A program made the position numbers and the translations under genes. This document shows positions 52,862 through 59,212 of a stretch of 64,000 nt of DNA, one piece after another (position 1 is the stretch's first letter; the number at the start of each line of letters is the position of its first letter). Source of the DNA: Kaistia granuli DSM 23481 (lineage in GTDB: Bacteria > Pseudomonadota > Alphaproteobacteria > Rhizobiales > Kaistiaceae); contig NZ_AQYH01000020.1 of NCBI RefSeq assembly GCF_000380505.1, forward strand, positions 124,001-188,000, given 5' to 3'. The notes under the pieces were generated by a model. That model worked only from the letters and a program-made list of their open reading frames with translations, searched no databases and was not told where the DNA came from.

Positions 52862-54631
52862 TTACCCCAGCGACGACGGCGCCGCCGCCTCTTGGTCCGG
52901 CGCCGGCACCACCACCCGTTCCGGCCGTGCCAATGTCAGGGTGCCGTCCGCCCGATGCAGGGTGTGGATGTAGAAATAGCTGTCGACGGCATTGGTGCCC
53001 TCCATCACCGGCGAGGGCGCCGAGATGATGGGCAGTCCGCCGCTCTCGCCGATCCAGTCGACATGGCGATGGCCGTGCAGGACGATGGCGCGTCCGGCGA
53101 AGCGGCCGATCCAGCGCATGAACCAGCTGCCATTGATCAGCGCCGTGCCGATCCGTTCCGACAGCGCCTTGGCCGGCTGCGGATATTCGACGACGTGGTG
53201 GTGCAGCGCGATCAGCCAGCTCGCATCGGGATAGTCGGCCTTGACGGCGTCCATCGCCCGCGCCTGCTCGAGCGAGACCATGCCGAGCGCGTTGGTGAAG
53301 GAGAAATGCGTCTCGGCGTTCGAGTTCAGCACCAGGATGCCGAGGCCGTCGGGGCGCGAGGGCGGCTGCACCAGCGGGAAGACCGTCGCCCATAGCTCGG
53401 AGATTGCCCCGCCGGCCCGGCGCGAGCCACGGTCGGCGAAGGCCTCGACCGGCTCGCGGCGCGCCGCCATGGCGGCGGCGAGTGTGTCGCCGAGATCGCG
53501 CCGCTCGCGGTCGACGACATGGTAGCGCTCGCCCTGCAGCTGCGTCATCGCCGACAGGGTCCGCAATTGCCGCAGCCGCTTGTTCGGGCTCATCGGCAGG
53601 TCCATGCGGGCCGGATTGGTGCGGTCGACGACGTTGACGTCGTGATTGCCCGGCAGGATCGTCACCAGAGCAGCGAGCTCCGGGTAGGGCTCCAGCGCGT
53701 CGAGAAACTCCGCCCATTCGGTCGAAAGGCCGGCATCGGTCATGTCGCCGGTGATCAGGATGGCGTCGAGCGGCTCGGCGGCGTGCACGGCGGCGAGCCT
53801 GGCCAGCGTCGCCGCGAACTTGTCGTTGCCGCGCGGGCCGACCCGGCCGCTTTCGATCCGGAAGCCGTAGCGTTCGCCGACCGTGTGGATGTCGGAGAGA
53901 TGGGCGACCCGCCAGCGCGGCGCGCCCGGGGCGGCGGGGCGGAAGGCGGTGAAGGTGCGCGGCTGCGCCATGGTGGCGTCGGCGATGCCCCAGATCAGCG
54001 CGGCGATGGCGAGATAGAGCGAGAGCAGCACGACGCCATTGGCGACGGCGACCAGCGCCAATTGGCGCGGCGCGGCGAGATCGGCCAGCGTGCCGACCCA
54101 GCGCGTCGCCGGCCAGACCAGCAGCGCCAGTCCGAGCGCCAGCGCGAACACGATCAGCCCGGCGACGGCGGCGGTGACGGCGCGCGCCCTGGCGATCGTC
54201 TTCGGCGGCGCGTTGGAACGCGACAGCAGGCGGTGTTCGGTCAAGTGGCGCAGGGTTTCGCGGCAGAGCGCATAGAGCGGCTGCACGGCGACGGAGTTCA
54301 GCGACCAGAAGCTGCTCTCGAGCATGCGGAAGGCCCGCCGCCCGCCGAACCAGCCGATCAGGCCGAGGGCTGCCAGAAAGAGCAGGGGGGCGAGGCCGGT
54401 ATAGACGATCGCCGCCTGACGTGAGGCGATCCGGAGCCAGATCGACAGGAGAACCGGCACCAGCCCGAGGGCGAGCGCCGGCAGTCCCATCAGCAGCGTC
54501 CAGGCGATGATCAGCTTGATCGGGCTGATCTCTGCCAAGAGCGACCCGGCGATCGCCAGCAGCGACCGCTGCTTGGTGCTGGACGCGTCGTCTTCAATAT
54601 CGCCCCCGCGGGGGTCCACCATCGGCTTCAT
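52862..54631 (-). CDS. Membrane-bound metallophosphoesterase
   Basis: A 589-residue protein. The first 230 residues hold about five hydrophobic helices with positively charged loops. The C-terminal 340 residues are a calcineurin-like phosphoesterase: VAHLSDIHTVGERYG, ILITGDMTDAG, ILPGNHDVN, ALHHHVVEY and VLHGHRHVDW supply the complete dinuclear metal site. The enzyme domain should face the cytosol if the first helix enters normally, but topology is uncertain. Possible substrates include phospholipid head groups or cyclic nucleotides; the sequence does not decide. It converges on the AI-2E gene. Confidence 0.85.
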   Translation of the reverse strand: MKPMVDPRGGDIEDDASSTKQRSLLAIAGSLLAEISPIKLIIAWTLLMGLPALALGLVPVLLSIWLRIASRQAAIVYTGLAPLLFLAALGLIGWFGGRRAFRMLESSFWSLNSVAVQPLYALCRETLRHLTEHRLLSRSNAPPKTIARARAVTAAVAGLIVFALALGLALLVWPATRWVGTLADLAAPRQLALVAVANGVVLLSLYLAIAALIWGIADATMAQPRTFTAFRPAAPGAPRWRVAHLSDIHTVGERYGFRIESGRVGPRGNDKFAATLARLAAVHAAEPLDAILITGDMTDAGLSTEWAEFLDALEPYPELAALVTILPGNHDVNVVDRTNPARMDLPMSPNKRLRQLRTLSAMTQLQGERYHVVDRERRDLGDTLAAAMAARREPVEAFADRGSRRAGGAISELWATVFPLVQPPSRPDGLGILVLNSNAETHFSFTNALGMVSLEQARAMDAVKADYPDASWLIALHHHVVEYPQPAKALSERIGTALINGSWFMRWIGRFAGRAIVLHGHRHVDWIGESGGLPIISAPSPVMEGTNAVDSYFYIHTLHRADGTLTLARPERVVVPAPDQEAAAPSSLG

Positions 54632-55221: not shown

Positions 55222-55569
55222 TGTAGACTCCATCGTTCAGGACGATTTCGAACAGGCTGCCGGTTTGCCCGGTCAGCGGCTCGCGGGCGGCCGCCGGGTC
55301 GCGGGCGAGGCCCGGCCGACGCGGCTACCATATCCTGCCGATCGAATATTGCGAGCGTGCGGAATCCCATCCGCGGGCGTTGCGTCCCAAATCGCGGCCA
55401 CCGACGTCCGGTTGCGCCTTCAACAGCGCGTGAGGCGAGCCGAATGGCCGCATTCGGACTGAAAGGATCGATTGCCGCAGGGTGGAAATTAGCGGTGGAA
55501 ACGTCGGGCTTGACCAAAAGAACAAAACGTGAACAAATGAGATATCGACAGTCCGATTAGGAGATAGCC
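55222..55569. other. Divergent intergenic region with SOS promoter
   Basis: A gap of 348 bases between the leftward DUF1269 gene and the rightward micropeptide gene. It contains the LexA box and promoter listed separately near its right end. The left part shows nothing distinct; open frames through it are unlikely to be coding. Confidence 0.6.
55510..55540 (+). promoter_or_regulatory. LexA box (GAAC-N7-GAAC) overlapping a promoter
   Basis: GAAC at 55520-55523 and GAAC at 55531-55534 are separated by exactly seven bases (AAAACGT). This is the exact direct-repeat LexA operator of alphaproteobacteria (GTTC-N7-GTTC on the other strand). TTGACC at 55510-55515 is a good -35 element, and the box lies between it and the A/T-rich -10 region around 55533-55540, the ideal place for repression. 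The controlled unit is the 32-residue peptide gene and probably dnaE. Confidence 0.8.
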
Positions 55570-55668
55570 ATGACAGCCTATATCCGTGACGCGGCAGCCC
55601 TCGGCGCCTTGATGCTCTTCATCGCGATGATCGGCCTGTGGTCGGATCTGCTCGTCGCCATCGTCTGA
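55570..55668 (+). CDS. SOS-controlled 32-residue single-pass membrane peptide
   Basis: The frame reads MTAYIRDAAALGALMLFIAM and continues to a C-terminal LLVAIV: a short polar N terminus (one Arg, one Asp) then a hydrophobic helix of about 20 residues. AGGAG lies eight bases before the ATG. A LexA box precedes it by 36 bases. Size, layout and SOS control recall SidA of Caulobacter, a 29-residue LexA-regulated inner-membrane inhibitor of division acting on FtsW/FtsN. Whether this is a true counterpart cannot be decided from so short a sequence. It could also be only a leader gene for dnaE, which begins 82 bases after its stop. Confidence 0.72.
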   Translation: MTAYIRDAAALGALMLFIAMIGLWSDLLVAIV

Positions 55669-55750
55669 CCGGCAAGGGCGGGAGAAAGGCGGCCGCGTGA
55701 TGGACAGGCGGGCTGCTCTCGCCGTAAATCGGGCGGAAGAGGATCGCCTG

Positions 55751-58700
55751 ATGAGTCATATCGCCCGGGACGTCGGATTTGTTCACCTGCGGGTCCACTC
55801 CGCCTATTCGCTGCTCGAAGGGGCGCTGCCGCTCAAGACGCTGATCAAGCTGGCGGCGGCGGACAAGATGCCGGCGCTGGGCCTGACCGATACCGGCAAT
55901 CTGTTCGGCGCGCTGGAATTCTCCGAGAAGACGGTGGAGACCGGTATCCAGCCGATCATCGGCTGCCAGGTCGCCATTCAGTTCGATGACGGCTTCGAGC
56001 CGTCGCGGCGGCCGGTCTCCGGCCAGAAGACGCTTTCCGATCTTGTCATGATCGCGTCGAACGAGGCCGGCTACTGGAACCTTGTCCGCCTGGTCTCGCG
56101 GGCCTTCATGGAGACGGATGCCGGCGACAAGCCGCATATCAAGTTCGCCGATCTCGAGGAATCGCATCAGGGCCTGATCGTCCTCACCGGCGGCGGCGCC
56201 GGACCGCTCGACCAGGCGATCCGGGTCGGGCAGGGCGCCTTCGCCGAGCGGCGGCTGGAGCGCATGGCCGGCCTGCTGGGCGACCGGCTCTATGTCGAAT
56301 TGCAGCGCCACAGGACGATCGAGGAGCAGCGGGCCGAACCGGAGCTGATCGATCTCGCCTATCGCCACGGCCTGCCCTTGGTCGCGACCAACGAGGCGTT
56401 CTTCCCGAAGCGCGACGACTACGAGGCGCATGACGCGCTGGTCGCCATTGCCGAGGGTGCGGTGGTGGCCGACGAGAAGCGCCGGCGGCTGACGCCCGAG
56501 CACTATTTCAAGTCGCGCGCCGAGATGGTCGAGCTGTTCGCCGACCTGCCGGAGGCGACCGACAATTCGGTCGAGATCGCGCTGCGCTGTTCCTACAGGC
56601 CGATGAAGCGCAAGCCGATCCTGCCGCGCTTCGCCGGCGCCGACGCCGAGCCCGAGGCGGCGGAGCTGGCCGAGGTCGCGGCGCTGCGCGATCTCGCCAG
56701 AACCGGCCTCGAGAAGCGGCTGGCCTTCCATGGCCTCGCGCCGGGGCTGACCGACAAGGACTATTGGGACCGGCTGGAATTCGAGCTGTCCGTCATCGAG
56801 AAGATGAAGTTCCCCGGCTACTTCCTGATCGTCGCCGACTTCATCCAGTGGGCGAAGTCGAAGGATATTCCCGTCGGGCCGGGCCGTGGTTCGGGCGCCG
56901 GCTCGCTGGTCGCCTGGTCGCTGACCATCACCGATCTCGATCCGATGCGCTTCGCGCTGCTGTTCGAGCGATTCCTCAATCCCGAGCGCGTGTCGATGCC
57001 GGACTTCGACATCGACTTCTGCCAGGACCGGCGCGGCGAGGTCATCGACTACGTCCAGCAGAAATACGGCGCCGCCCAGGTGGCGCAGATCATCACCTTC
57101 GGAACGCTGCAGGCGCGCGCCGTGCTGCGCGACGTCGGCCGCGTGCTGCAGATGCCGTACGGCCAGGTCGATCGGCTGTCGAAGATGGTGCCTCAGAACC
57201 CGGCCAACCCGGTCTCGCTGGCGCAGGCGCTCATCGACGAGCCGCGCCTGCGCGAGGCGCGCGACGAGGATCCGGCGGTCGCCCAGCTGCTGGGCATGGC
57301 GCAGAAGCTCGAGGGCTTGTATCGCCACGCCTCGACCCATGCCGCCGGCATCGTGATCGGCGACCGGCGGCTCGATGCGCTGGTGCCGCTCTATCGCGAT
57401 CCGCGCTCGACCATGCCGGTCACCCAGTTCAACATGAAGTGGGTCGAGAGCGCCGGCCTGGTCAAGTTTGACTTCCTCGGCCTGAAGACGCTGACGACGC
57501 TGTCGACGGCGCTGAAGCTGATCGCCAAGCGCGGCATCGAGGTCGATCTCGCCGCCATCCCGCTCGACGACCGGGCGAGCTACGACATGCTGACGCGGGG
57601 CGAGACCGTCGGCGTGTTCCAGCTGGAAAGCCAGGGCATGCGCAAGGCCCTGATGGGCATGCGGCCGGACCGGTTCGAGGACATCATCGCGCTCGTGGCG
57701 CTCTATCGTCCGGGCCCGATGGACAACATCCCGACCTACAACGCCCGCAAGCATGGCGAGGAGAAGCCGGACTATTATCATCCGCTGATCGAGGTCGTGC
57801 TCAAGGAGACGCACGGCGTCGTCATCTACCAGGAACAGGTGATGCAGATCGCGCAGATCCTGTCCGGCTACTCACTCGGCGAAGCCGACATGCTGCGCCG
57901 TGCCATGGGCAAGAAGATCAAGGCCGAGATGGATGCGCAGCGCGACCGCTTCGTGGTCGGCGCCGTCAAGCAGGGGCTGACCAAGGACCACGCCAACACC
58001 ATCTTCGACATGTTGGCCAAGTTCGCCGACTACGGCTTCAACAAGAGCCACGCGGCGGCCTACGCGCTCGTCGCCTACCAGACCGCCTATCTGAAGGCGA
58101 ACTACCCGGTCGAGTTCCTCGCCGCGTCGATGACGCTCGACATGGGCAATACCGAGAAGCTGAACGATTTCCGCCGCGAGGCGATGCGTCTCGGTATCAC
58201 TGTCGAGTTGCCCAGCGTCAACCGCTCCGGTGCGGTGTTCGACGTCGAGGAGGGGCGCATCCTCTATTCGCTGGCGGCGGTCAAGGGCGTCGGCAGCCAG
58301 GCGGTCGAGCATCTGGTCGAGAGCCGGGCCGACCGTCGTTTCCGCGATCTCTCCGATTTCGCCGCCCGGATCAATCCGCGCATCCTGAACAAGCGGACGC
58401 TGGAAAGCCTGATCTGCGCCGGCGCGCTGGACGGGCTCAATCCGGACCGCGCCAGCGTCATGGCCGGCGTCGAGCGGATCATGGCGATCGGCAACCGGGT
58501 GGTCGAGGGCGCCGCCATCGGCCAGGACGAATTGTTCGGCGAGGGCGGGCAGGGCGAGACGCTGACCCTGCCGGCGGTCGATCCGTGGATGCCGTCCGAG
58601 CGGCTGCAGCGCGAGCATGCAGTCGTCGGCTTCTATCTGAGCGCCCACCCGCTCGACGAATACGGGCCGATCCTGAAGAACATGCGGGTCCAGACCTGGG

Positions 58701-59212
58701 CGGAGTTTTCCGAATCCGTCCGTCTCGGCGCCGCCGCCGGTCGTCTGGCCGGCACGGTGACGACGCGGCAGGAACGCCGGACGAAATCCGGCAACAAGAT
58801 GGGCATCGTCCAGTTCTCCGATCCGACCGGCCAGTTCGAGGCCATCCTGTTCTCCGAGGCGCTCAACGAATATCGCGACCGGCTGGAGCCCGGCCAGTCG
58901 GTCATCCTGCAGGTCGGCGCGGAAGACCGGCCCGAAGGCATCAGCATCCGCATCGTCACGGTGAAGCCGCTCGACCAGATCACGACCGGCATCAAGCAGC
59001 TGCGCGTGTTCCTGCGCGGCGAGGAGCCGCTGCAGAGCCTCGAACGCCATCTGCCCAAGGGCAGAGGGGACGGCGATGTCAGCCTGGTGCTGATGCTGGA
59101 CAAGGGCCAGAAGGAGGTCGAGGTGCAGCTGCCGGGCCGCTACCAACTGTCGCCGCAGATCGCCAGCGCGCTCCGCGCCGTCAGCGGCGTCGTGCAGGTG
59201 GAGCTGGTGTAG
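55751..59212 (+). CDS. dnaE: DNA polymerase III alpha subunit (replicative)
   Basis: An 1153-residue catalytic subunit of the replicative polymerase. The PHP domain begins FVHLRVHSAYSLLEGALPLKTLI. The polymerase core includes PVGPGRGSGAGSLVAWSL and the catalytic aspartates in MPDFDIDFCQDRRGEVIDYV, then HASTHAAGIVIGD and GYGFNKSHAAAYALVAYQTAYLKANYPVEF. A C-terminal OB fold (LAGTVTTRQERRTKSGNKMGIVQFSDPTGQFEAILF) follows. Length and position after lolD mark it as the main DnaE1, not the mutagenic DnaE2/ImuC of imuAB cassettes. MSHIARDVGF is the chosen start, with AGAGGA upstream. The LexA-box promoter ahead of the micropeptide may also reach it. Confidence 0.96.
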   Translation: MSHIARDVGFVHLRVHSAYSLLEGALPLKTLIKLAAADKMPALGLTDTGNLFGALEFSEKTVETGIQPIIGCQVAIQFDDGFEPSRRPVSGQKTLSDLVMIASNEAGYWNLVRLVSRAFMETDAGDKPHIKFADLEESHQGLIVLTGGGAGPLDQAIRVGQGAFAERRLERMAGLLGDRLYVELQRHRTIEEQRAEPELIDLAYRHGLPLVATNEAFFPKRDDYEAHDALVAIAEGAVVADEKRRRLTPEHYFKSRAEMVELFADLPEATDNSVEIALRCSYRPMKRKPILPRFAGADAEPEAAELAEVAALRDLARTGLEKRLAFHGLAPGLTDKDYWDRLEFELSVIEKMKFPGYFLIVADFIQWAKSKDIPVGPGRGSGAGSLVAWSLTITDLDPMRFALLFERFLNPERVSMPDFDIDFCQDRRGEVIDYVQQKYGAAQVAQIITFGTLQARAVLRDVGRVLQMPYGQVDRLSKMVPQNPANPVSLAQALIDEPRLREARDEDPAVAQLLGMAQKLEGLYRHASTHAAGIVIGDRRLDALVPLYRDPRSTMPVTQFNMKWVESAGLVKFDFLGLKTLTTLSTALKLIAKRGIEVDLAAIPLDDRASYDMLTRGETVGVFQLESQGMRKALMGMRPDRFEDIIALVALYRPGPMDNIPTYNARKHGEEKPDYYHPLIEVVLKETHGVVIYQEQVMQIAQILSGYSLGEADMLRRAMGKKIKAEMDAQRDRFVVGAVKQGLTKDHANTIFDMLAKFADYGFNKSHAAAYALVAYQTAYLKANYPVEFLAASMTLDMGNTEKLNDFRREAMRLGITVELPSVNRSGAVFDVEEGRILYSLAAVKGVGSQAVEHLVESRADRRFRDLSDFAARINPRILNKRTLESLICAGALDGLNPDRASVMAGVERIMAIGNRVVEGAAIGQDELFGEGGQGETLTLPAVDPWMPSERLQREHAVVGFYLSAHPLDEYGPILKNMRVQTWAEFSESVRLGAAAGRLAGTVTTRQERRTKSGNKMGIVQFSDPTGQFEAILFSEALNEYRDRLEPGQSVILQVGAEDRPEGISIRIVTVKPLDQITTGIKQLRVFLRGEEPLQSLERHLPKGRGDGDVSLVLMLDKGQKEVEVQLPGRYQLSPQIASALRAVSGVVQVELV

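Follow-up and report, generated by a model that had tools for sequence, protein, structure and literature searches.

The window analyzed here is a 64,000-nucleotide stretch of the Kaistia granuli DSM 23481 genome. It carries a short open reading frame (ORF) directly upstream of dnaE1, the gene for the alpha subunit of DNA polymerase III, together with promoter and operator elements that suggest control by LexA. We describe this locus, its conservation and its probable relationship to the Caulobacter division inhibitor SidA.

Locus organization

All features of the locus lie on the forward strand. A putative promoter begins with a −35 element, TTGACC (55510–55515), read from the sequence and located 4 nt 5′ of a predicted LexA-binding site, GAACAAAACGTGAAC (55520–55534), which matches GAACN7GAAC exactly and was identified by pattern and by conservation. 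The site is followed by a ribosome-binding site read as AGGAG (55559–55563), 6 nt 5′ of an ATG at 55570. This ATG opens a frame of 32 codons (55570–55668, TGA at 55666–55668) with the translation MTAYIRDAAALGALMLFIAMIGLWSDLLVAIV, a predicted single-helix membrane peptide of the SidA type. A polar head, MTAYIRD, precedes a hydrophobic membrane helix at codons 8 to 28 (55591–55653), the exact ends of which are our own reading. The first-pass annotation had described this arrangement of −35 element, exact box, AGGAG, 32-codon frame, polar head and helix, and each of these elements was recovered on reading and translating the sequence. Its distance of 36 bases from box to ATG was recounted as 35 nt, which leaves a short leader. 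It had also placed the box between the −35 and −10 elements; TTGACC and the box are present as described, but the −10 candidates (ACAAAT or CAAATG) are weak, and a generic sigma-70 promoter scan of 55300–55900 returned no sites, TTGACC included. The 64-kb window holds four exact boxes versus 1.54 expected, and four or more occurred in 6 of 100 shuffles, so that the box is not beyond chance within the window alone; it is beyond chance once relatives are compared.

The downstream gene starts 82 nt 3′ of the peptide ORF, on the same strand, and a terminator scan returned no sites, with nothing terminator-like between the two. Family models identify its product as DnaE1 (NF004226, 1481.5 bits; cutoff, 1002), while the error-prone polymerase model PRK05672 scored 616.9, below its cutoff of 939; a dnaE2/imuAB mutagenesis cassette was rejected on the match to the DnaE1 model. 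The coordinates of dnaE1 (55751–59212) use a start codon chosen from the sequence, the likely ATG at 55751 behind AGAGGA (55738–55743); the ORF list opens the frame at a GTG at 55697. Elsewhere in the window, a reverse-strand gene (52862–54631) encodes a 589-amino-acid calcineurin-like phosphoesterase with a weak, sub-cutoff match to the antiphage model DS9_1 (57.7 bits; cutoff, 420).

Coding evidence

Among 14 sequences from the genus, pN/pS is 0.44 in the peptide frame versus 1.57 and 1.67 in the alternative frames, and of 31 columns each, 18, 11 and 29 vary at codon positions 1, 2 and 3, respectively. The frame thus appears to evolve as a protein under selection on its amino acids, and the ORF is very likely a real gene. 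The best 15-residue Kyte-Doolittle mean is 2.48, and a single-sequence AlphaFold2 model consists of one helix (residues 2 to 31; mean pLDDT, 95). From 110 loci we collected 102 peptides, 82 of them unique; in their alignment F17 does not vary, position 7 holds D (83%) or E (17%), and A10 and W24 are each conserved in 88%. Membership in a known protein family was rejected because the peptide had no match in Pfam (E ≤ 0.1) or NCBIfam (E ≤ 0.001), and a phage origin was rejected because it had no phage match at E ≤ 1. A tblastn search of plasmids with a 31-amino-acid relative also gave no match.

Conservation within the order

Searching 61 genomes (own, genus, family and order) gave a peptide match at E ≤ 1 in 40, the weakest of which are chance matches. 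At all 30 best-matching loci dnaE follows directly 3′ on the same strand; an exact box lies no more than 130 nt 5′ of the peptide at 28 of them. A profile built from 21 peptides (A1) was searched across the order: 148 of 297 genomes matched at E ≤ 0.1, and the other 149 had no match at that threshold. From 25 loci of this search (L090–L114), nine repeats were left out and two repeats of the first set were kept, and an exact box stands in the 130 nt 5′ of the peptide at 15 of the resulting 16 loci. Another 60 loci were picked from further matches of the same search; the box is exact at 39 and has one mismatch at 8 others, and dnaE follows the peptide in 56. Two of the loci read, L095 and L322, run into a contig end; the gene in L017 is probably completed by L322. 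Control segments inside dnaE contained no exact box (0/297). Since the profile was built on peptide similarity and not on the box, conservation of the box is separate evidence. The promoter arrangement recurs as well: TTGAC precedes the box by 2 to 5 nt (measured from the hexamer, within the 14 nt searched) in 62 of 84 exact-box loci, and AGGAG or a similar sequence precedes the Met codon in relatives too. A stretch from Methylobacterium bullatum (L382) contained neither a short helix ORF nor a box. The first-pass annotation had proposed looking for the frame and box before dnaE in related genomes, and had named their absence from close relatives as evidence against its reading; computationally, both proved to be conserved there.

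Several loci depart from the common arrangement. Locus L321 (genome G491) encodes a family peptide among regulator-like and dehydrogenase-like frames. Its box, GAACGAAATGAGAAC, is exact, a near box, GAACAAAATGAGATC, is also present, and a search of the 0.9 kb downstream found no dnaE; because this copy keeps an exact box with no dnaE nearby, we argue that the box serves the peptide. A second copy of 27 amino acids, MIIRDILALGSLLTFMTMLGVWASILF, occurs in L301:1–1331 (G670) and L304:1–1341 (G490), 5′ of a frame of about 210 amino acids and an ssb-like frame; no LexA box with one mismatch or fewer was present in the first 600 nt of either. Family f215 has ATAC in place of GAAC as the second half-site (GAACN7ATAC, then CATAAT) at all 10 loci read (L292, L302, L307, L311, L314, L317, L318, L328, L331 and L332), each 5′ of a peptide of 27 to 31 amino acids. 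A further in-phase GAAC lies 33 nt from the first in those counted, and the site may be read as a drifted or differently read operator. In family f11 (L023, L340 and L344) a SidA-like helix ends a longer frame of 110 to 204 open codons, whose N-terminal parts share PTVRDFT...RLA.AIASA.IVRD and whose start lies near an exact box; these frames may represent a SidA helix extended at its N terminus.

Wider Alphaproteobacteria

The class sample comprised 90 loci, the 30 best dnaE matches and 60 picked from the matches listed, mostly one per family, and therefore leans toward close dnaE sequences. Boxes were counted over the 88 loci with enough upstream DNA, the window's own included. An exact forward box lies 60 to 400 nt before dnaE at 14 of these, versus 0.25 expected from mononucleotide shuffles; 74 have no exact box, and the opposite orientation gave 2 loci. 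Scores of a combined peptide profile exceeded the best reverse-strand score (4.9) at 9 of the 14 box loci, window included, versus 1 of the other 76 class loci scanned. The remaining five box loci (L063, L071, L245, L253 and L267) score 4.6 or less, and their short helix frames are therefore candidates only. Box loci outside the order fall in seven families, four of which have a profile-supported peptide before dnaE. As most class loci examined show neither box nor peptide, the module has often been lost or is not ancestral.

Probable relationship to Caulobacter SidA

SidA is described as a 29-amino-acid, SOS-induced, LexA-controlled inner-membrane division inhibitor acting through FtsW, with FtsW and FtsN as reported partners (PMC4211646), and deletion of lexA in Caulobacter is reported to cause filamentation through sidA (PMC12700426). 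Named Caulobacterales genomes were gathered through a PopZ scan, among the matches listed; of the 28 searched for dnaE, 27 yielded it. A short peptide of the ARES, ARET or ARDS type precedes dnaE in 23 of the 27. It is 29 or 30 (mostly 29) amino acids long from an ATG in 22 of these, as in Caulobacter vibrioides OR37 (L220), where it has 29 residues; the other (L199) is listed only as a 40-amino-acid frame, and several frames also have a longer in-frame start. The short-helix filter gave no such peptide in the remaining four (L196, L198, L205 and L213). Exact boxes are present at the dnaE locus in 15 of the 27. The Caulobacterales peptide profile (A2) matches 33 of 35 named genomes, which were chosen from at least 80 named PopZ loci and some of which also fed the profile.

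We take sidA to be CC1927. It is also numbered CCNA_02004 (PMC10769358), and Caulobacter dnaE is CC1926 (PMC1839093). From length, place, box and gene numbering, we infer that the Caulobacter ORF before dnaE is SidA; the records carry no SidA label, and the letters of the presumed SidA were not found in the literature searched.

Aligning A1 against A2 with hhalign gave an ungapped match of 24 columns (P = 2.4e-5; probability, 76%). When A2 columns were permuted after the first two, 0 of 400 permutations were as good; for residues 8 to 29 only, 2 of 400 were. Register was assessed by anchoring 75 of the 82 unique peptides (26 to 36 amino acids) at Met against the SidA set: offset 0 was the best of 13 (mean, 0.224; next, −0.071) and was chosen by 40 of the 75. 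The helix core alone also peaks at offset 0, with 6 of 1,000 column permutations as good; the helix-only permutation tests are significant, not overwhelming. Because the hhalign, register and permutation results agree, the two families are probably homologous, and the window peptide is, on this sequence evidence, very probably a SidA homologue, though overall identity is low. Both are about 30 amino acids long with a single predicted helix, follow a LexA box and precede dnaE, and they have R6, D/E7, A10, L11, F17, I/V18 and M20 in common. They differ in length (29 versus 32 amino acids), and W24 and the D/E26 region of the window peptide stand in place of the FVWMMC and AQLVA parts of the Caulobacter peptide. 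The window ORF is thus a probable orthologue of sidA, beyond mere resemblance, and the SidA-like character proposed in the first-pass annotation is supported by the shared place before dnaE, the same box type, the ungapped, Met-anchored similarity in head and helix, coding selection, and the presence of LexA and an FtsW-type protein in the genome.

A probable counterpart in Sinorhizobium meliloti

A 2023 ribosome-profiling study of S. meliloti 2011 lists sORF25/SEP25, located "in the 5′-UTR of dnaE1," among translated novel small ORFs, some of which it suggests to be upstream ORFs (uORFs) (PMC10117765). In S. meliloti Ak57 the 469-nt gap between lolD (ABC ATPase) and dnaE has no listed gene, in a PLSDB gene table that is incomplete, and holds the 28-amino-acid frame MADFVRDLAAFASMSLFIVSISVIALGL behind a GAACN7GAACN7GAAC box, GAACGGAAATAGAACAAAAAGGGAAC. 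Judged by its place, sORF25 is probably this SidA-type frame. It shares with the window peptide the position 5′ of dnaE1 and a box of the GAACN7GAAC type, and differs in that its authors suggest a uORF; its presumed identity with the Ak57 frame is assigned by location. If sORF25 is the same gene, then its translation has been shown and it shares the dnaE1 message; the off state would also not be tight, because translation was seen in growing cells without added damage. Neither a paper on S. meliloti start sites nor one on sRNAs mentions dnaE in its main text.

SOS and division genes of the genome

The LexA gene lies on the same contig as the window, with GAACGCATGGGGAAC upstream. The genome contains six GAACAAAANNNGAAC sites, and a reversed control pattern gave none. 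One site falls between ssb- and uvrA-like frames; further sites, candidate SOS promoters, are at C4:278860–278874, C6:34590–34604, C8:545473–545487 and C15:40320–40334 (L222, L223, L224 and L226, respectively), and that of L223 adjoins a radical-SAM-like frame. A single SEDS (FtsW/RodA) protein was found in the 4.77-Mb genome (C8:71030–72058), and we read it as FtsW because it lies between murD- and murG-like frames. One SEDS protein would be consistent with a cell lacking RodA-based elongation. The SulA family (PF03846) was found in 0 of 61 genomes.

Proposed function and alternatives

We consider it likely that the window peptide is a LexA-controlled division inhibitor of the SidA type, probably acting through FtsW. 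In an undamaged cell, LexA would occupy the box inside the promoter and expression would be low. Activated RecA would lead to LexA cleavage and open the promoter, and a short inner-membrane helix would be produced, probably from a message shared with dnaE. This helix would bind the septal synthase FtsW, and perhaps FtsN, keeping the FtsW/FtsI/FtsN complex inactive so that constriction waits for repair. LexA control, the division block and the FtsW interaction are established in Caulobacter; for the window organism we infer them, along with co-induction of dnaE.

The peptide could instead be a uORF or leader peptide tuning dnaE, with the box serving dnaE and the amino acids being secondary. Its position before dnaE at nearly all loci read fits this view, as does the uORF role suggested for sORF25 (PMC10117765). 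We regard it as unlikely, given the selection on amino acids, a membrane helix with F17 invariant over 82 peptides, the exact box belonging to the L321 copy with no dnaE found in 0.9 kb downstream, and the proven division inhibitor at this place in Caulobacter, if that gene is SidA. Slightly less likely still is an SOS-induced membrane-damaging peptide of the TisB/DinQ kind, which would lower membrane energy and slow growth without being directed at the divisome. The build is the same (very short, one helix, LexA box), but the fixed-register similarity to the Caulobacter peptide and the conservation of head charge and of residues beyond hydrophobicity argue for a SidA-type inhibitor. In TisB/DinQ-type peptides an antisense RNA partner and a structured leader control translation. 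The window ORF has a short leader, with 35 nt separating box and ATG. DinQ itself is described as toxic and as spanning the inner membrane with a single segment (PMC3567139). A conserved SOS peptide of the membrane that has a different target, for instance a sensor of the replisome or envelope, is improbable; a partner is not readable from a 32-residue helix, but probable orthology with SidA points to its reported partners, FtsW and FtsN. A spurious ORF beside a chance box, suggested by the shortness of the ORF and by box counts in the window alone, is refuted for practical purposes by conservation of frame and box and by coding selection.

Among known systems, the SidA-type reading of the window peptide can be set beside DidA of Caulobacter, which by description is likewise a small single-helix membrane protein and a damage-induced division inhibitor, and differs in being 71 amino acids long, not SOS-controlled and FtsN-binding (PMC4211646). 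YneA, SosA and ChiZ of Gram-positive and mycobacterial species are SOS- or damage-induced membrane proteins that block division, with FtsW as a reported or modeled target (PMC13396833); by description, the likeness is one of function only.

Significance

We know of no named SOS division inhibitor in Alphaproteobacteria outside Caulobacter. The literature searched, which did not extend to the original description of SidA (Modell et al. 2011), contained nothing that connects SidA to dnaE or names relatives of SidA beyond Caulobacter. The candidate is conserved and occupies a fixed position, in organisms that include a tractable symbiont, which makes the question directly testable. It would turn a translated small ORF, viewed in print as a possible uORF, into a likely checkpoint gene, and it places a replicative polymerase gene behind a putative SOS promoter. 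More broadly, SidA may be an old alphaproteobacterial module in which one LexA promoter serves both a division brake and the replicative polymerase, and may be the principal inhibitor of division under SOS in the window's order, in which the search for SulA found nothing, S. meliloti included; we hold this to be an evenly balanced proposition. If true, it would tie replisome supply to divisome arrest.
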